Assembly (NCBI GenBank): GCA_018402585.1
Contig: JAGYIO010000001.1
Span: 124,001-188,000 of the forward strand
Length of the DNA: 64,000 bases
From: Chthoniobacterales bacterium
Lineage (GTDB): Bacteria > Verrucomicrobiota > Verrucomicrobiia > Chthoniobacterales > JACTMZ01
Direction: 5' to 3'
Each line of letters begins with the position of its first letter. Positions within the stretch are counted from its first letter, which is position 1. The notes beneath the pieces were generated by a model. It searched no databases. It was given only the letters and a program-made list of their open reading frames with translations, and was not told the DNA's origin. The position numbers were made by a program, and so were the translations under genes. Positions 5,311-64,000 of the stretch are shown here, one piece after another.

Positions 5311-6587
5311 TGCAGGCCGAAGTGATCAATACGGGATCCGAACTCCTCCTCGGTCTCGTGACCAACACCCACCTCGCTTATCTGGCCGGCGAACTCACCC
5401 CTTGCGGCGTCAGCATCGCCCGCCAAGTCTGCGTGCCCGATGGCCCGCCCATCCGCCAAGCTCTCGAGACCGCCCTCCAGCGCGCCGATCTTGTCTTGAC
5501 CACCGGAGGCCTCGGGCCGACCAGCGACGACCTCACGCGCGAAGCTGCGGCCGAATTGCTCGGACTTCCGCTCATCCCTGATGAAGAAATTCTCTCCGGC
5601 ATCCGCGAACGGTTTGCCCGCCGCGGGCTTCCCCTGGCCGACCGCATTGCGCGCCAAGCCATGGTTCCGGCCGGCACCGCAGTCCTGCCCAATCCGCAGG
5701 GGACCGCGCCGGGACTTTACTTCCCCCCCTCGGTGCTGGGCGGACACCGCGCGCGCCATCTTTTCCTGCTGCCCGGACCTCCGCGCGAATTGCGGCCCAT
5801 GTTTGCCGATCACGTCCTGCCCAAATTACGTGCCGTCCTGCCCCCTTCATCTTTGCGCGAACGCCGCATCTACCGTCTGAGCGGTATTGGCGAAAGCCAG
5901 GTCGAAGAACGCATCGGCCGGCAACTCGAAGAGCGCGGTGACCTTGAGGTCGGTTATTGCGCGCGCCCCTCCGAAGTGGACTTCCGCCTGATCGGACCGC
6001 CCGCCATCCTCGCCGAGACCGAGGTGGCCATCCGCGCGGAACTCGGTGATTGGATCTATTCGGACGGCGACCCCCTCGAGTCGGTGGTCGTCCGTCTGCT
6101 GGGCGAAAAGAAACAAACCGTGGCCACGGCCGAATCATGCACCGGTGGTTCCTTGGCCGCGCGCATCACCAATGTGCCGGGTGCCTCGGAGGTCTTTCTC
6201 GCTGGTTACGTGACTTATGCCAACCAAGCCAAGGAAAGGACCCTCGGTCTTCCCGCCGGTCTGCTCGCCACCCACGGCGCGGTGAGCGAACCCGTCGCGG
6301 CGGCCATGGCCGAAGGCGCTCGCCGCGTCTCCGGCGCGCGCTATGCCCTCTCCACGACCGGTATTGCCGGACCCGGCGGCGGAACAGAAAGCAAACCGGC
6401 CGGCATGGTTTACCTCGCACTGGCCTCCGAGGGCCATCCCACCGTGGTCCGCCGCTGTTACTTCCCCCTCGACCGCATCACTTTCAAGCACATGACAACC
6501 AGCGCCGCCCTCGACCTGCTGCGCCGGCGGATCCTCGAGCTGCCGCTCGAACTCGGCGGCGGGTCCGCTTCGCCCCGCTTGGGCTGA
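5310..6587 (+). CDS. cinA: CinA family protein (nicotinamide-nucleotide amidohydrolase)
   Basis: 425 residues in the normal two-domain arrangement. The amino part is a MoCF/molybdopterin-binding-like (COG1058) domain: INTGSELLLG at the start and VLTTGGLGPTSDDLTREA near 70-88. The C-terminal part is a PncC-type deamidase domain with ATAESCTGGSLAARIT and STTGIAGPGGGTESKPAGMV. PncC converts nicotinamide mononucleotide to nicotinate mononucleotide, recycling the by-product of NAD-dependent DNA ligase. Being two genes from nadC, it forms a small NAD-related neighbourhood. The start codon overlaps the preceding stop by one base. Confidence 0.93.
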   Translation: MQAEVINTGSELLLGLVTNTHLAYLAGELTPCGVSIARQVCVPDGPPIRQALETALQRADLVLTTGGLGPTSDDLTREAAAELLGLPLIPDEEILSGIRERFARRGLPLADRIARQAMVPAGTAVLPNPQGTAPGLYFPPSVLGGHRARHLFLLPGPPRELRPMFADHVLPKLRAVLPPSSLRERRIYRLSGIGESQVEERIGRQLEERGDLEVGYCARPSEVDFRLIGPPAILAETEVAIRAELGDWIYSDGDPLESVVVRLLGEKKQTVATAESCTGGSLAARITNVPGASEVFLAGYVTYANQAKERTLGLPAGLLATHGAVSEPVAAAMAEGARRVSGARYALSTTGIAGPGGGTESKPAGMVYLALASEGHPTVVRRCYFPLDRITFKHMTTSAALDLLRRRILELPLELGGGSASPRLG

Positions 6588-59189: not shown

Positions 59190-60258
59190 GACGCCTGCAC
59201 CCGCCCCCCGGCGGCAGCTCTCACCACGAGCCTTCGCGCTCCTCGCTCTGACCCTCGCCGCCTGCAGGCCGACCGCCATTCCACCGGGCATGGTTCTCAT
59301 CCCCGGAGGCGAGTTCACCATGGGGAGCGAGGCCGACTACGCTTTCCCCAACGAAAGTCCCCCGCACCGTGTCACCGTTTCCCCGTTTTTTCTCGATGTG
59401 AACCCGGTGACCAATGACGACTTTGCCCGCTTCATTAAATCGACCGGCTACCTCACGGTGGCCGAACGCCCGATCGATTGGGAGGAAATGAAAAAACAGC
59501 TCCCCCCCGGCACACCAAAACCACCCGACGAAGTGCTCGCTCCCGGTTCGCTCGTTTTCCGTCCGACCGAGGGCCCGGTCGATTTTCGCGACATATCGCA
59601 ATGGTGGATTTGGACCACCGGCGCGTCATGGCGCCACCCCGAGGGTCCGGCGAGCAATTTGGAAGGACGCGGCAACCATCCCGTGGTCCACGTTGCTTGG
59701 GAGGACGCGCAGGCTTACGCCGACTGGGCCGGCCAGCGCCTGCCGACCGAGGCGGAATGGGAATTCGCCGCGCGCGGCGGACTCGACCAAGCCCGCTACG
59801 CGTGGGGCGATGAGGAGAACCCGGACGGACGATTCATGGTCAACCGCTGGACCGGCACATTCCCCGACCGCAACGACCGCGCTGACGGCTTTGCCGGCAC
59901 ATCACCCGTCGGATCCTTCCCGCCCAACGGATACGGCCTTCATGATATGGGCGGCAACGTGTGGAATTGGTGTAGTGACCTTTACCGCGCCGATACCTTC
60001 GCCACGCGGGCCGACGACCAGCAAGCCTGCTGCGATCCGGGCGGACCGCTCGACTCCAAGCGCGAAACCCCGGTCCCCGGCGACCCCTCACCGCCGCTCG
60101 TTCCCGGTGCGGAACGCCGCGTGACCAAAGGCGGATCCTTCCTCTGTCATCCAGCCTACTGCGAAAGCTACCGCCCGACGGCCCGACGCGGAACTCCGCC
60201 GGACACCGGCAGCAGCCACGTCGGATTTCGCTCTGCGCTGGATGCTGTGGCACCGTGA
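59188..60258 (+). CDS. Lipoprotein formylglycine-generating enzyme (FGE-sulfatase domain)
   Basis: 356 residues from ATG 59188, beginning MTPAPAPRRQLSPRAFALLA with lipobox LAAC (Cys 26). The FGE domain starts GMVLIPGGEFTMGSEADYAFPNE (split by charge) and ends RVTKGGSFLCHPAYCESYR. Both active-site cysteines (about 320 and 325) of true aerobic, copper-dependent FGE are present, so it is likely catalytic, not a lectin-like paralogue. It would oxidise Cys 81 of the exported sulfatase outside the cytoplasm. Its last seven bases overlap the degraded integrase on the other strand. Confidence 0.92.
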   Translation: MTPAPAPRRQLSPRAFALLALTLAACRPTAIPPGMVLIPGGEFTMGSEADYAFPNESPPHRVTVSPFFLDVNPVTNDDFARFIKSTGYLTVAERPIDWEEMKKQLPPGTPKPPDEVLAPGSLVFRPTEGPVDFRDISQWWIWTTGASWRHPEGPASNLEGRGNHPVVHVAWEDAQAYADWAGQRLPTEAEWEFAARGGLDQARYAWGDEENPDGRFMVNRWTGTFPDRNDRADGFAGTSPVGSFPPNGYGLHDMGGNVWNWCSDLYRADTFATRADDQQACCDPGGPLDSKRETPVPGDPSPPLVPGAERRVTKGGSFLCHPAYCESYRPTARRGTPPDTGSSHVGFRSALDAVAP

Positions 60259-60790
60259 AGCGCTGCTGCGGACCGGATCCAGCCGACGTGGATTTGTTCG
60301 GTGCGGCAGGAATAGTGGTGGGCGCGGCCAGCGGCGCGGATTTCGTCGATGAATGGGGCAAAGCGCGGCGGCAGCTCACCGCGGTCGGACTTGCCTTGAT
60401 GCCGGGCACGGAGGAACTCTTCGTCGAGCGGCGGCCGCCGCTCCGGGAGGCTGTGCGGCGGCGAGCGGTTGGCGCACTTTCCAAACAGCCGATCACGGGG
60501 CGGGGTAGCGGGGATTGGTGCAGGAGTTTGAGCGCCGCCTCGGCCTGCTCGATCTGCCAACCGGCTTTGCCTTGGTCGGCCAGATGCTGCAAAAAGGCCT
60601 CGACCTCGGATTCCCCTGCGTCCACGAATTTGCGAGGCGAGAGATACTCCCCTCAAGGCGTGACCTAACTGGTCCAAAATGGAATCAATGGTTCCTGCAC
60701 GCCCTTTTTCTCGGGCCACGTCCCCGAACTGCTCGCAAAAACTCGAGTGGGCCATAGCGGATGGAATAATCCAACAACTGCCCCTCACTT
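60252..60790 (-). pseudogene. Degraded integron integrase (intI)
   Basis: Two blocks in different minus-strand frames match integron tyrosine recombinases. The first (60625-60515) reads ESEVEAFLQHLADQGKAG, in keeping with the N-terminal extension I recall from such integrases of Verrucomicrobiota. The second (60362-60252) reads AHHYSCRTEQIHVGWIR, close to IntI1 LHYSLRTEQAYVHWVR. They are joined by a frameshift, and an in-frame stop precedes the first block. The catalytic domain (R-H-R-Y) is missing; homology ends at the FGE gene. It is clearly nonfunctional. Confidence 0.75.
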
Positions 60791-60855
60791 AAAAGTAATA
60801 TGCGACCAGTCGTAAAACCCAATATTAACGAACTGTCGTATACTATACGTTCGAT
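60791..60855 (+). other. attI-like site
   Basis: The first cassette core GTTCGAT (60849-60855) lies 60 bp from the integrase remnant. Just before it is a perfect 13-bp palindrome CGTATACTATACG (60837-60849), with similar flanks AACTGTCG and TACGTTCG, reminiscent of the paired binding sites of an attI. A promoter is possible (TATACT) but no good -35 was found. The G at 60849 is the predicted crossover base. Confidence 0.6.
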
Positions 60856-60861
60856 CAAGAC

Positions 60862-61176
60862 ATGGTTTACCTACAAGTCCTAGGCTTTTTGGTCTTGGTG
60901 TATAGCGGTGGCTTTGTCCTGCCGTTTGTCTACTGCCGTGTCCGAAGGCGCATGCCCTGGCATCAGTGCATTGTGCCTGCTGTTCTGGGGTTTGTTTTGT
61001 TTCTCCTTCTGGCGACTAGCGTTGCGGATCTCGGCTACGAGAAGTTCCGTGGAATACCAGTTGCTGCAACAGTGGCGCTTATCAGCTTAATTGCGGTGCC
61101 ATATCTTTTGTCTTTCTGGCTTATCTTTCAGCAGCGCCGCTGCGTTGGGAAACATGGAACTCGATCAAATACTTAA
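60862..61176 (+). CDS. Cassette 1 membrane protein A (hypothetical)
   Basis: 104 residues with three membrane segments (about 4-24, 38-56 and 66-88) and a short basic tail. It begins 13 bases after the cassette core, as usual for cassette genes, and overlaps the next gene by 23 bases. I do not recognise a family. Codon use is less GC-biased than in the chromosome proper. Confidence 0.65.
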   Translation: MVYLQVLGFLVLVYSGGFVLPFVYCRVRRRMPWHQCIVPAVLGFVLFLLLATSVADLGYEKFRGIPVAATVALISLIAVPYLLSFWLIFQQRRCVGKHGTRSNT

Positions 61177-61492
61177 TCTGGCCGAAGCAGTCCTTTGGTT
61201 TGCTATTGCCCTCATTTTGTTTCTGAGAGCAAAACGCTCCGTGCCGAACCGAATGCTAATGCGTATTTCCGCAGCAGCATTCTTCGTTTTTGGACTTTCG
61301 GATCTCGTCGAGATGGTTACTCGCGCATGGTATCAGCCGTTGGGGCTTTTTCTGCTCAAAGCGGTCTGTGTCATGACACTGATCGGATGTCTCGTTGCCT
61401 ATCGTCGCACTCGTGTTTCCCCAAACAGATCGAACCACACGCTACACCAGACGCCTGCAGGCGCTGGTGACCTGAAGCGTTCGATCAGATGA
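61154..61492 (+). CDS. Cassette 1 membrane protein B (hypothetical), C-terminus encoded by attC
   Basis: 112 residues with three membrane segments (about 8-24, 36-54 and 62-82). The last ~20 residues (NRSNHTLHQTPAGAGDLKRS) are translated from the attC hairpin. Similar HxLHQTPAGAG-like tails occur on many small proteins of soil bacteria; here they are explained as attC read-through rather than a domain. No function is proposed. Confidence 0.65.
   Translation: MELDQILNLAEAVLWFAIALILFLRAKRSVPNRMLMRISAAAFFVFGLSDLVEMVTRAWYQPLGLFLLKAVCVMTLIGCLVAYRRTRVSPNRSNHTLHQTPAGAGDLKRSIR
61429..61485 (+). other. attC site of cassette 1
   Basis: 57 bp from ATCGAAC (61429-61435) to core GTTCGAT (61479-61485), exact reverse complements. 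The stem is CACCAG(A)CGCC / GGCGCTGGTG around a TGCA loop (61445-61469), with one unpaired A of the kind that orients IntI binding on the folded strand. The length is that of the shortest known attC sites. Confidence 0.9.
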
Positions 61493-61875
61493 AAATGAAT
61501 ACAGTCAGAAAGATCCTTCTGGTCCCGATCTTCATATCGGTGGCTGTTCTGGCTGTCTGCGCGTATCTCGGACCAAGGGCGCTGTCCCTTGATTACCCAG
61601 CTCCCTACAGCAAGAAAGCTGTCGAATGGCACGCTGCCGCAATGAAATCGAATGACCCAGAAATTCTTCGAGACCACGCAGACAAATTGTGGGGCGCCCT
61701 CAATGACTCGGACAAGATTGTCGGCACCTTTGTCAAAGCCAACAGCTCTGGATTGGTTGCCGCAAGCTCCGCATCTTTTGCGGTGTTGGTGTTTGGCATT
61801 GCCGCATTCATCAAAGCGAAAGGGAATGATCGAACCATGCCGTCCAGCAAATCGAGCCAAGGACTCGACTGCTGA
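61489..61875 (+). CDS. Cassette 2 membrane protein (hypothetical)
   Basis: 128 residues, starting ten bases inside cassette 2 by an ATGA overlap with the gene before. A signal-anchor segment (about 8-28), a soluble part (SKKAVEWHAAAMKSNDPEIL...), and a second membrane segment (about 89-108). The frame ends inside attC. No family is recognised. Confidence 0.65.
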   Translation: MKMNTVRKILLVPIFISVAVLAVCAYLGPRALSLDYPAPYSKKAVEWHAAAMKSNDPEILRDHADKLWGALNDSDKIVGTFVKANSSGLVAASSASFAVLVFGIAAFIKAKGNDRTMPSSKSSQGLDC

Positions 61876-61890
61876 CGGCGAACGTTGGCA
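61829..61890 (+). other. attC site of cassette 2
   Basis: 62 bp from ATCGAAC (61829-61835) to core GTTGGCA (61884-61890). Its 5' core is the exact reverse complement of the start of cassette 2 (GTTCGAT at 61479). The stem pairs GCCGTC(C)AGCA (61839-61849) with TGCTGACGGC (61870-61879), leaving one extrahelical C, and an inner TCGAG/CTCGA stem. This is the clearest attC fold in the array. Confidence 0.92.
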
Positions 61891-61897
61891 TTATCGC

Positions 61898-62170
61898 ATG
61901 AGGACGGTCGGTAACACATTGCTCCTCGTGACGGTCCTGCTTGCCTTGGCGCCGGTCATGATCGTCGGCCGTGGCTCACAACCATCCACGCAAATCTACC
62001 AAGACGCCAAGGGCAGCTGGATGCCCGCGGCGTATGCCTACGCCAACCCACGTGCTCTCTTAATCGCGGCAGGCTTTACCGGACTCGCTGGGGCTGGTTT
62101 TATCGTCGCATCTTCGCTGGTGGAGCGGCGCCGTCGAGCGGGCCGCCCGGGAAAACCGGCTCAAGACTGA
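61898..62170 (+). CDS. Cassette 3 small membrane protein (hypothetical)
   Basis: 90 residues from ATG 61898, seven bases after the core. Two membrane segments (about 5-24 and 52-72, ALLIAAGFTGLAGAGFIVA) and a basic C-terminal tail. It precedes the RelB/ParE pair within the same cassette, which would make this a three-gene cassette. Unknown function. Confidence 0.55.
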   Translation: MRTVGNTLLLVTVLLALAPVMIVGRGSQPSTQIYQDAKGSWMPAAYAYANPRALLIAAGFTGLAGAGFIVASSLVERRRRAGRPGKPAQD

Positions 62171-62210
62171 ACAGCATTGCTCCGGCCCCGAAGTGCAGTA
62201 TGCTAAAACC

Positions 62211-62429
62211 ATGATCGCTCAGTCTGAAATACGGCAGATGTCTTTTCCTGAAAAGGTGGCCTTGCTCGAGACGGTCTGGTCCGAGATCGCTGCAGACCCC
62301 GGCCAAGTCGAAGTGCCGCAATGGCACAAAGACATCTTGGACGAGCGTGACCTTGCTCTAAATGAGGGGCGAGCAACGGTCCTCGATTGGGACGAAGCTA
62401 AAAGGCAAATCGAGCAGGCCACTCGATGA
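62211..62429 (+). CDS. Antitoxin, putative addiction module component (RelB-like)
   Basis: 72 residues from ATG 62211, with the start of addiction-module family proteins (SEIRQMSFPEKVALLETVWSEI over the first helix, written in part). The C-terminal WDEAKRQIEQATR would wrap the toxin. A possible promoter (TTGCTC 62177, TATGCT 62199, 16 bp apart) precedes it. The stop overlaps the ParE-like start by ATGA, the usual antitoxin-toxin layout. Confidence 0.85.
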   Translation: MIAQSEIRQMSFPEKVALLETVWSEIAADPGQVEVPQWHKDILDERDLALNEGRATVLDWDEAKRQIEQATR

Positions 62430-62725
62430 GGTTGCAAATCCTTGATTCGGCGCGCGACGACCTGATCGACGGATTTTACTTCTACGAAAAGCAAGAGCCC
62501 GGGTTGGGCGCTTACTTTCTGACAAGCCTTTACGCCGACATGGAGGCCTTGAAGATATTGTTTGGGATTCATCCGCAGGCGTATCGCGGTTTTCACCGGT
62601 CGCTTTCGAACAGATTTCCCTTCGCCATCTACTACACCTACGACCCAGAGGCCGTTATGATTCGCGCTGTGGTGGATTGCCGCCGCAAGCCGTCTTGGAT
62701 TCGGCGGCACATTGAAAATGCCTAA
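62426..62725 (+). CDS. RelE/ParE-family toxin
   Basis: 99 residues. ParE-type features: LDSARDDLIDGFYFYEKQEP at the start, a central GIHPQAYRGFHRSLSNRFPF and IYYTYDPEAVMIRAVVDCRR as the last strands. ParE-type toxins inhibit gyrase and RelE-type cleave mRNA; I cannot say which this is. Its stop codon TAA is part of the attC core GCCTAAC. Confidence 0.87.
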   Translation: MRLQILDSARDDLIDGFYFYEKQEPGLGAYFLTSLYADMEALKILFGIHPQAYRGFHRSLSNRFPFAIYYTYDPEAVMIRAVVDCRRKPSWIRRHIENA

Positions 62726-62779
62726 CAAGCCAGGCTAGCCAACCTCGCTGCGCTCGGCGGCTGTCCTCCAGCGTTCGCA
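62720..62779 (+). other. attC site of cassette 3 (degenerate)
   Basis: 60 bp from GCCTAAC (62720-62726), which contains the toxin stop, to core GTTCGCA (62773-62779). The stem AGG-CT-AGCC (62732-62740) pairs with GGCT-GT-CCT (62759-62767). The 5' core ATGCCTAAC matches the cassette start GTTGGCAT except for one extra base. The fold is weaker than in the other sites. Confidence 0.65.
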
Positions 62780-62793
62780 GACAAATATGCACT

Positions 62794-62822
62794 TTGGCAT
62801 GGATGCCTTTTAGGCATACATT
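62794..62822 (+). promoter_or_regulatory. Promoter and operator of the BrnT-like pair
   Basis: TTGGCA (62794) and TACATT (62817) are 17 bp apart. A palindrome ATGCC-TTTTA-GGCAT (62803-62817) lies between them and is a likely operator for the antitoxin. Transcription would start about at the GTG of the next gene, so its mRNA may be leaderless. Confidence 0.5.
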
Positions 62823-62828
62823 GCGAGG

Positions 62829-63104
62829 GTGGTTTTTGACTGGGGTCCAGAGAAGAATGAAAAAATCAAGAGGGAGCGGGGGATCTCTTTTGAGGAAATC
62901 GCTCTGCTGCTTGCTGCCGGGAGTGTCTGGGCAGTCACAAAACACTGGAATACGGAAAAATATCCCAACCAAAGGATTTTTCTCATTCCCATCGATGGTC
63001 GCATTATCGCGGTTCCCTTTGTCCGGGATAAGGACCGATTTTTTCTCAAGACCCCTTTCCCCTCAAGAAAGATGACAAAACTCTACAACGAGGAGCAAAA
63101 ATGA
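62829..63104 (+). CDS. BrnT-like toxin
   Basis: 91 residues from GTG 62829. The amino motif FDWGPEKNEKIKRERGISFEE is the BrnT opening (WDxxKNxxNxxKHGxSFEEA), and RIIAVPFVRDKDRFFLKTPF is near the end. BrnT toxins are RNase-like proteins regulated with BrnA. The stop overlaps the next start by ATGA. GTG is preferred as no ATG precedes the motif. Confidence 0.75.
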   Translation: MVFDWGPEKNEKIKRERGISFEEIALLLAAGSVWAVTKHWNTEKYPNQRIFLIPIDGRIIAVPFVRDKDRFFLKTPFPSRKMTKLYNEEQK

Positions 63105-63376
63105 AACCAACCACTGAGGCAGAAGAAAAAGAAATCGCAGACGCCCTTGAGCGCGGAGTTATCGAGTTTGAGAAACCCTCTCGTAAACTCCTCTCCGATT
63201 TGAAGAGGGCTTCGGAGAATACATTCAAGAAAGACAGAAGAATCAACGTGCGCCTGAGCAGTCATGATTTGCTTGGCATCCAGAGAAAGGCCCTCAAAAA
63301 AGGTCTTCCCTACCAAGCGCTGATTTCCGGTTTGATCCACCAGTATGTTGAGGGAGAACTCTTGGAAAAATCATAA
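63101..63376 (+). CDS. BrnA/CopG-like antitoxin
   Basis: 91 residues. Charged amino part, then a ribbon-helix-helix-like segment: RRINVRLSSHDLLGIQRKAL followed by KGLPYQALISGLIHQYVEG. It lies directly after the BrnT-like gene with ATGA overlap, the order seen in brnTA. It probably binds the palindrome upstream of the toxin. Confidence 0.78.
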   Translation: MKPTTEAEEKEIADALERGVIEFEKPSRKLLSDLKRASENTFKKDRRINVRLSSHDLLGIQRKALKKGLPYQALISGLIHQYVEGELLEKS

Positions 63377-63493
63377 TGCGAACAAACCGATGGACCCGAC
63401 TGCCATGCCTGAAGTGGCACTTTTGGCACGTCGCCTGCGGGGCAGGCTTTGGTGCTAAAAGCGAATAGCCGCAGGTCATCGCGGACGTTCGGC
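63377..63493 (+). other. attC site of cassette 4
   Basis: 117 bp from TGCGAAC (63377-63383) to core GTTCGGC (63487-63493). The 5' core is the exact reverse complement of cassette 4's start (GTTCGCA at 62773). The outer stem CGATG(G)ACC (63388-63396) pairs with GGTCATCG (63474-63481), with one extrahelical G. A long, partly structured middle (with GCCTGCGGGGCAGGC) makes this the largest attC here. Confidence 0.85.
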
Positions 63494-63506
63494 AGAAAAC
63501 TGCGGC

Positions 63507-63540
63507 TTGACGCTGTCGCGAGTATGATATATCGTCATAC
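63507..63540 (+). promoter_or_regulatory. Promoter/operator of the RHH-MazF pair
   Basis: TTGACG (63507) could be a -35. The inverted repeat GTATGA-N7-TCATAC (63522-63540) overlaps the expected -10 (TATATC or nearby) six bases before the antitoxin ATG. Ribbon-helix-helix antitoxins bind such sites, so autoregulation is likely. Confidence 0.6.
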
Positions 63541-63545
63541 CCACT

Positions 63546-63788
63546 ATGAGCGTTGCTAAAATCGCGATCACCATGGAAGTGGGGTTGGTCGAGCAAGTCG
63601 ATCGGCTCGTGCGGGAGCATGTTTATCCCAACCGGAGCCGGGCGATTCAGGACGCCGTGGCCGACCGGTTGCGGCGCATGGATCGAGGGCGGTTGGCTCG
63701 CGAGTGCGCCAAGCTTGACCCCAAGTTCGAGCAGGCTCTTGCCGAAGAGGGGATGGGTTCGGAGATCGCGCAATGGCCCGAATATTGA
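63546..63788 (+). CDS. Ribbon-helix-helix antitoxin (MazE/CopG-type)
   Basis: 80 residues. RHH pattern: [20 protein letters not shown] (strand and helix A), then [19 protein letters not shown] (helix B), with an acidic tail ending AQWPEY. It overlaps the toxin gene by 16 bases and lies next to the inverted repeat it probably binds. It belongs to cassette 5. Confidence 0.9.
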
Positions 63789-64000
63789 GGGGCGACATTG
63801 TCTGGACCGACCTCGAGCCGACGCGCGGCAACGAGCAAGCCGGACAGCGTCCGGTCTTGATCCTGAGCGAAGATGTTTTCAACGACCGGTCGGGAACGGT
63901 CATTGCCATCGCTTTGACCAGCCAGCCGCAAAAAGCCAGTTTTCCTCTCACCTTGGAATTGCTCGAGACGAAACTGCCGAAGCGATCTTGGGCCAAGATC
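63773..64000 (+). CDS. MazF/PemK-family endoribonuclease toxin, cut by window end
   Basis: 76 codons are visible. [20 protein letters not shown], then [17 protein letters not shown] and [18 protein letters not shown] are the MazF opening motifs, with the conserved GxEQxGxRPVLIL-type block (Arg next to Pro). MazF cleaves mRNA at short sequences. The remaining C-terminus lies outside the window. Confidence 0.93.

Follow-up and report, generated by a model that had tools for sequence, protein, structure and literature searches.

An integron cassette array with a retained attI site and a truncated integrase gene in a Chthoniobacterales bacterium, and dispersed attI copies in its genus

The array, its attI site and the broken intI

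We analyzed a stretch of 64,000 nucleotides (the window; G000:C1:124001-188000) from a Chthoniobacterales bacterium whose assembly, G000, comprises 2.46 Mb in 35 contigs and is 89.6% complete. The right end of the window carries an integron array, i.e., a row of gene cassettes bounded by attC sites, which runs 2.1 kb beyond the window to G000:C1:190122 and consists of seven cassettes with seven attC sites, four inside the window and three past its end. The initial annotation had proposed a chromosomal integron array next to sulfatase genes, with four attC-like sites of 57, 62, 60 and 117 bp and a first core at 60849. All four sites have the positions and lengths proposed, the first core is also at the proposed place, the array continues past the window, and both the Pfam neighbors and the attC models support the proposal, with the qualification that the integron integrase gene (intI) is present only as a 5' fragment. 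Beyond that annotation, the segment 60276-60853 is a truncated intI plus an attI site, to which the first core belongs. The features are listed below, with scores from the attC covariance models R1 and R2 and the attI sequence model R3, and with z values from single-strand DNA folding of each attC against 200 shuffles (ORF, open reading frame).

60276..60788, minus strand: truncated 5' intI (N-terminal extension and integrase start; 3' part missing, frame broken by stops)
60770..60851, plus strand: attI, crossover G^TT at 60849/60850; R3 96.3 bits, E 5.8e-29
60850..61479, plus strand: cassette 1, with ORF 60862-61176 and an ORF ending at 61492; no Pfam match over the cut-off
61429-61485, plus strand: attC1, 57 bp, R''/R' complementary at 7/7; R1 17.1 bits, E 0.036, weak; fold z -4.1
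61480..61884, plus strand: cassette 2, ORF 61489-61875; no Pfam match
61829-61890, plus strand: attC2, 62 bp; R1 23.2 bits, E 7.7e-4; fold z -2.8
61885..62773, plus strand: cassette 3, with an ORF ending at 62170; no Pfam match
62193-62429, plus strand: cassette 3, Unstab_antitox-family ORF, PF09720, 44 bits
62426-62725, plus strand: cassette 3, partner ORF without Pfam match, a toxin by position only
62720-62779, plus strand: attC3, 60 bp; R1 73.7 bits, E 8.8e-18; fold z +0.5
62774..63487, plus strand: cassette 4, with BrnT-like ORF 62829-63104, PF04365, 26.2 bits, below the curated cut-off
63101-63376, plus strand: cassette 4, CopG-antitoxin-like ORF, PF12441, 23.9 bits, below the curated cut-off
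63377-63493, plus strand: attC4, 117 bp; R2 105.3 bits, E 1.2e-23; fold z -2.9
63488..64000, plus strand: cassette 5, first part, with ribbon-helix-helix-like ORF 63546-63788, below the cut-off
From 63773 past the window end, plus strand: cassette 5, PemK/MazF-family toxin, PF02452, 69.4 bits
G000:C1:188637-188750, beyond the window: attC of cassette 5, E 4.5e-4
G000:C1:189346-189436, beyond the window: attC, E 3e-7
G000:C1:189997-190122, beyond the window: attC, E 5.3e-17

The 53 bp preceding the first core recur elsewhere in the genus, and sequence of this type sits just upstream of a divergent intI in three relatives, G009, G007 and G004 (the G004 intI being cut by a contig end), which is why we read the repeat as attI. 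R3 was built from 10 attI copies, none from the window and all found by BLAST with the window copy. That the repeat might itself be an attC is not supported, since three genomes have it next to intI and G^TT marks its end; moreover, neither R1 nor R2 matched there in the window, and its fold gave a z of -1.3, with 22 of 200 shuffles as good. Judged by sequence and position, an attI with a G^TT crossover heads the array, as expected of an integron.

The intI fragment abuts an FGE-like gene ending at 60258, and 60276-60853 is 94% identical over 580 bp to intI/attI of G009 (blastn). The break point of intI is identical in the window and on contig C76 of G009, both stopping at query 584, and C76 is flanked there by this FGE gene as well (92% over 1507 bp), so the truncation is common to G000 and G009. 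No complete IntI adjoins attI, only the 5' fragment. When the G000 assembly (89.6% complete) was searched with TIGR02249, no match over the cut-off was obtained; weak matches at G000:C1:340 kb are an intI 3' remnant, and the two best matches (372- and 300-aa frames; 83.5 and 74.8 bits) were taken as other tyrosine recombinases because 14 control genomes also match below the cut-off. Since the local intI is a 5' fragment and the assembly has no TIGR02249 match over the cut-off, the array, with its seven attC sites, is strictly classed as a CALIN (cluster of attC sites lacking an integron integrase, i.e., at least two attC without a neighboring complete intI), in this case with an attI.

To the left lie sulfatase, HAD-hydrolase and FGE-sulfatase (sulfatase-maturation) genes (Pfam), which are simply neighbors of the insertion; the gene after the array, on the opposite strand, is one that we take from its reading frame to be aminopeptidase-like. 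In two relatives, G006 and G008, the locus is without the array, with 47 and 61 unaligned bases between the FGE-gene and aminopeptidase-gene flanks. The initial annotation had named, as the outcome that would speak against it, that no attC scored and that the same cassettes stood in synteny in relatives without an integron; three of the sites score clearly and one weakly, and the G006 and G008 loci have no array.

A repeat right of the last attC (G000:C1:190142-190223) occurs at 15 or more other G000 places with 74-88% identity, a lower bound given that 27 of 73 candidates were scored. The idea that the ~140 bp right of the last attC are part of the integron platform (intI, attI and cassettes) is not supported, since they recur in part at those at least 15 places, while outside G000 they were seen at the G009 version of the locus alone.

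The attC sites and their cassettes

R1 (60 positions) was trained on 10 attC sites, nine from relatives and one from another G000 array, and R2 (114 positions) on seven sites, all from relatives; neither training set contains a site of the window array, and both models were run over the 64 kb. In this check, which the initial annotation had suggested, attC2, attC3 and attC4 were clear and attC1 was weak, its R1 match beginning 9 bases early. One extra match at E <= 1 was obtained in the 64 kb (R2 at 6176-6257, E 0.61), and Rfam at gathering thresholds gave 0 matches in the window. By alignment, attC3 is a member of a short attC family recurring across the genus, and attC4 belongs to a long family with an extrahelical base and compensatory changes.

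To assess the long family quantitatively, 11 sequences (four of them from the window array) were compared with 500 shuffles. In the structure of R and L boxes with one extrahelical base, 89.8% of cells were paired versus 79.5% in shuffles, and both sides had changed in 27 cells versus 9.9 (0/500 as high), with 2-12 such cells in slid-alignment controls. The covariation score was 0.373, compared to 0.186 in shuffles. Together, these results suggest that the array has attC sites in which R'' pairs with R' and L'' with L' around an extrahelical base, as an integron should.

The first seven bases of a cassette were also compared with the R'' of its own attC. The exact reverse complement that the initial annotation had reported for cassettes 1, 2 and 4 was found in all three (7/7), while two such 7-mers drawn at random from the window match exactly with a probability of ~0.007. 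Toxin-antitoxin-like genes occur in five of the seven cassettes, those beyond the window also carrying Phd/ParE and Phd-YefM/YoeB pairs.

Two further observations concern cassettes in the G000 assembly. A 94% copy of cassette 2 lies at G000:C1:1222-1628, delimited by the G^TT boundaries of the cassette; R1 and R2 matched no site on the 10 kb examined there, and the copy resembles an off-target cassette insertion. Over 10,176 bp, contig C8 (G000:C8:1-12809) is 99.85% identical to the right-hand portion of the array and the sequence after it; its left side, with a sulfatase end and a sodium:solute symporter, differs and was not found elsewhere in the assembly. The switch point is 3 bp from the cassette 5 core and all 15 mismatches fall within the first 149 bp, so that C8 looks like either a population variant broken at a cassette core or a chimeric contig. 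Near the end of the C8 match there is a tandem ~594-bp repeat with 96% identity (L018:13534-14718).

intI and attI copies across the genus

TIGR02249 matched over its cut-off in five of the 11 genomes of the genus (up to 419.7 bits). G009, G007 and G004 carry intI at another locus than that of the window, and G000 and G006 have none over the cut-off. The IntI of the genus is N-terminally extended, its frame being 459 aa long and the Phage_int_SAM_4 match beginning at residue 146; among the best 80 of 514 related stretches, many at ~39-48% identity match into the extension, e.g., from Desulfobulbaceae, Lentisphaerales and Thauera.

The intI genes of G009 and G007 are 97.7% identical, whereas a 6.0-kb alignment of one housekeeping region, which runs from the aminopeptidase-like gene past proS, gives 78.7%; for G009 and G004, intI is 91.4% identical and this region 76.8%. 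The G009 and G007 platforms have different surroundings and cease to be homologous after the intI stop codon. Sequence flanking the G007 intI copy recurs in G009:C2, next to the decayed 3' end of an intI, and two attC sites follow ~2.7 kb on. Because intI identity is far above housekeeping identity and the surroundings differ, it seems that platforms have passed from species to species and from locus to locus, with old copies decaying. The stable, vertically inherited position of a sedentary chromosomal integron does not apply here, because the array is absent in G006 and G008 and the near-identical intI genes of G009 and G007 lie at different loci.

Decayed intI 3' ends were seen at G000:C1:340076-340373, G010:C12 (L044), G010:C19 (L086) and G009:C2 (L093). 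They are interrupted by a ~86-bp G+C-rich insert, which is longer in L093, and the piece in G010:C19 adjoins an attI. An IntI-driven platform move via the core-like GTTGGAT in the intI 3' end is not supported, since the orientation of that core is opposite and the intI on G002:C38 is without it.

A genome scan for attI gave 17 matches in seven of the 11 genus genomes and 0 in 46 genomes of 28 other genera; owing to the number of genomes, the scan used stricter filters, and weak copies may be missed. Eleven of the matches reach at least 88 bits, the other six, at ~60 bits or less, are partial or degraded, and 10 of the 17 are R3 training copies. A complete or contig-cut intI lies beside three, and intI pieces beside four more (window locus, G009:C76, G004:C42 and G010:C19). 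An attC was found within 1.5 kb downstream at 10 of the 17, and at nine of these 10 loci (the exception being L082) at least one attC match had not been used in training. Homology of the intI-less copies begins ~68-85 bp left of the core, near the intI start, with extremes of ~102 bp for one degraded copy and 47 bp in G010:C19. The contigs that carry the four G000 copies measure 532, 392 and 201 kb, so these copies do not stem from small, mis-binned contigs. A tRNA-Leu (gag) gene (L023:7079-7160) lies ~0.8 kb past the last attC found on contig C23, which bears the second G000 array.

We then compared attI loci shared between genomes. At the window locus (beta; G000 and G009), with its common truncated intI, the flank is 89-91% identical and attI 97.6%, and identity right of G^TT is 49.6%, versus a maximum of 58.1 among 20 shuffles. 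At a second locus, delta, G006 and G007 have a common left flank without intI (blastn 85% over 433 bp; 75% from -169); attI is 85.4% identical, the adjoining flank 64.2% and the right side 53.8%, which slightly exceeds the best shuffle (53.0). The match of G004 to the delta flank reaches no further than -186, with 77-78% identity in attI, 62-70% in the flank and a right side that does not rise above shuffles, and a third locus, alpha-prime (G000:C23/G006:C36), is common only to -148 (attI 84.1%, flank 63.2%, right side within shuffles). Since orthologous attI sites that have the loss or truncation of intI in common differ in their first cassette, and identity breaks off at the crossover, these comparisons suggest that IntI from elsewhere works on intI-less attI in trans. 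The simplest reading would be that cassettes were gained or lost after intI loss, which would require IntI from elsewhere; as judged from these alignments, the evidence for it is firm at beta, fair at delta (G006/G007) and weak elsewhere.

Origin of the array and competing explanations

We consider it very probable that the window array is an integron whose intI was broken after the platform had entered the locus, with attI being kept. In integrons, cassettes enter at the G^TT of attI and leave via attC recombination. Here, a platform would have come to lie between the FGE-like and aminopeptidase-like genes in an ancestor of G000 and G009, after which intI would have lost all but its 5' fragment, whereas attI was retained together with the attC-bounded cassettes. 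Since G000 and G009 differ in the first cassette although they have the truncated locus in common, attI most likely continued to recombine after the truncation, with IntI supplied from another locus (G009 still has one). In G000, the array is probably frozen now, because no intact IntI was seen in the assembly.

Several points weigh against this interpretation. The training sites of R1, R2 and R3 were all first found by similarity to the window array (those of R1 and R2 by BLAST with its own attC sites), so the attC3 and attC4 scores are partly by construction and are not blind tests; two R2 training sites are 86-90% identical to attC4. By model attC1 is weak (R1 E 0.036), attC5 and attC7 have degenerate cores, and 137 of 200 shuffles of attC3 fold as well as the site itself, so that attC3 rests on homology. 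In the long family, two measures stay within the range of the shuffles: pairs with two-sided change number seven (61/500 shuffles as high) and reach eight when the alignment is slid by -3, and further pair types number 16 (375/500 as high). Pairing between cassette start and R'' is imperfect in four cassettes: cassette 3, described in the initial annotation as nearly exact, has 4/7 ungapped, and cassettes 5, 6 and 7 have 5, 5 and 4 of 7. A promoter scan gave no promoter-like site in 60650-60950. Seven of the 17 attI copies are without attC, three of which lie 98-320 bp from a contig end and four of which are degraded, two of the latter in loci of only ~3 kb. The assemblies are metagenomic and incomplete, and homologous exchange of arrays across attI could also yield different first cassettes.

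The last of these points leads to an alternative that we regard as quite plausible, if somewhat short of probable, i.e., an ordinary decayed chromosomal integron that has been inactive here since intI broke. The dispersed attI copies would then be relics of several platform insertions, and the differing first cassettes would stem from homologous exchange or from before each intI loss. Consistent with this, intI remnants are varied, with 5' pieces at the window locus, G009:C76 and G004:C42 and 3' pieces at G000:C1:340 kb, G010:C12, G010:C19 and G009:C2; four of the 17 attI are degraded and have no attC; and the left flank is short at alpha-prime (-148) and for G004 at delta (-186), where orthology is uncertain. 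However, the beta (G000, G009) and delta (G006, G007) left sides are already without a complete intI, yet carry different cassettes at G^TT, and attI is better conserved than the adjoining flank.

We offer more tentatively, as a possibility that we hold to be on the doubtful side, a distributed integron, in which one genus IntI would serve several scattered attI sites, each heading its own intI-less cassette array. The platform would spread between species and loci and intI would be lost from most copies, with attI kept under selection as capture points served in trans. The short shared flanks at alpha-prime and at G004 delta weaken this reading and strengthen that of a decayed integron.

It is very unlikely that the array is a CALIN that arose when an IntI elsewhere inserted cassettes off target, into an attG-like genomic site. 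Such insertion is among the several origins proposed for CALINs (PMC8618304), and it may account for the separate cassette 2 copy; the window array, however, starts at an attI beside an intI fragment, which inserted cassettes would not bring. That the attC sites are chance hairpins between unrelated small genes, without any integron, is hardly credible: although a pattern scan for R''/R' and L boxes recovered attC1 only of the seven sites, plus many unrelated pairs (and was thus unspecific), and although attC3 folds no better than shuffles, the idea is contradicted by the models, the attI, the intI fragment, the empty site in relatives and the same attC families beside intI in relatives.

The array can also be set against known systems, for which the papers cited here are drawn on in excerpt. 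Sedentary chromosomal integrons, e.g., of Vibrio and Xanthomonas, are alike in having an attI, a divergent intI, attC-bounded cassettes and toxin-antitoxin cassettes; unlike in those, two species of one genus here have their intI-bearing platforms at different loci, and many loci have an attI but no complete intI. For Xanthomonas, arrays that persist although intI is truncated or gone, and CALINs elsewhere, are reported (PMC12444791), and for Treponema phagedenis the loss of intI (PMC3607928). A CALIN is likewise an attC array without an adjoining complete intI, here with a recognizable attI and an intI fragment in addition; one large survey counted 2961 CALINs versus 2760 complete integrons (PMC9024848). 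The same source calls attI poorly described and, outside class 1 integrons, not detected by IntegronFinder 2.0, so that this tool would not report such an attI. In class 1 and 2 integrons, delta-attI-type cassettes have attI sequence away from its intI (PMC12901181), mostly a stretch of 14-18 attI bases that follows the ORF of a cassette within a mobile integron, unlike the ~70-85 bp attI heading separate chromosomal arrays here. For Shewanella, several different intI genes per genome, lateral intI transfer and CALINs distant from intI are described (PMC9229058, in part), whereas this genus has one attI type at many loci, mostly without intI. Exact-word searches of the open-access literature gave no account of intI-less attI sites heading arrays at several loci of one genome.

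We therefore regard the array as of a known kind, an integron, with an unusual distributed arrangement of attI sites on which IntI would act in trans. The identified attI shows that an intI-less array descends from a whole platform and that the docking site is still present. If IntI elsewhere does use such sites, there would be several capture points for one enzyme in one genome.

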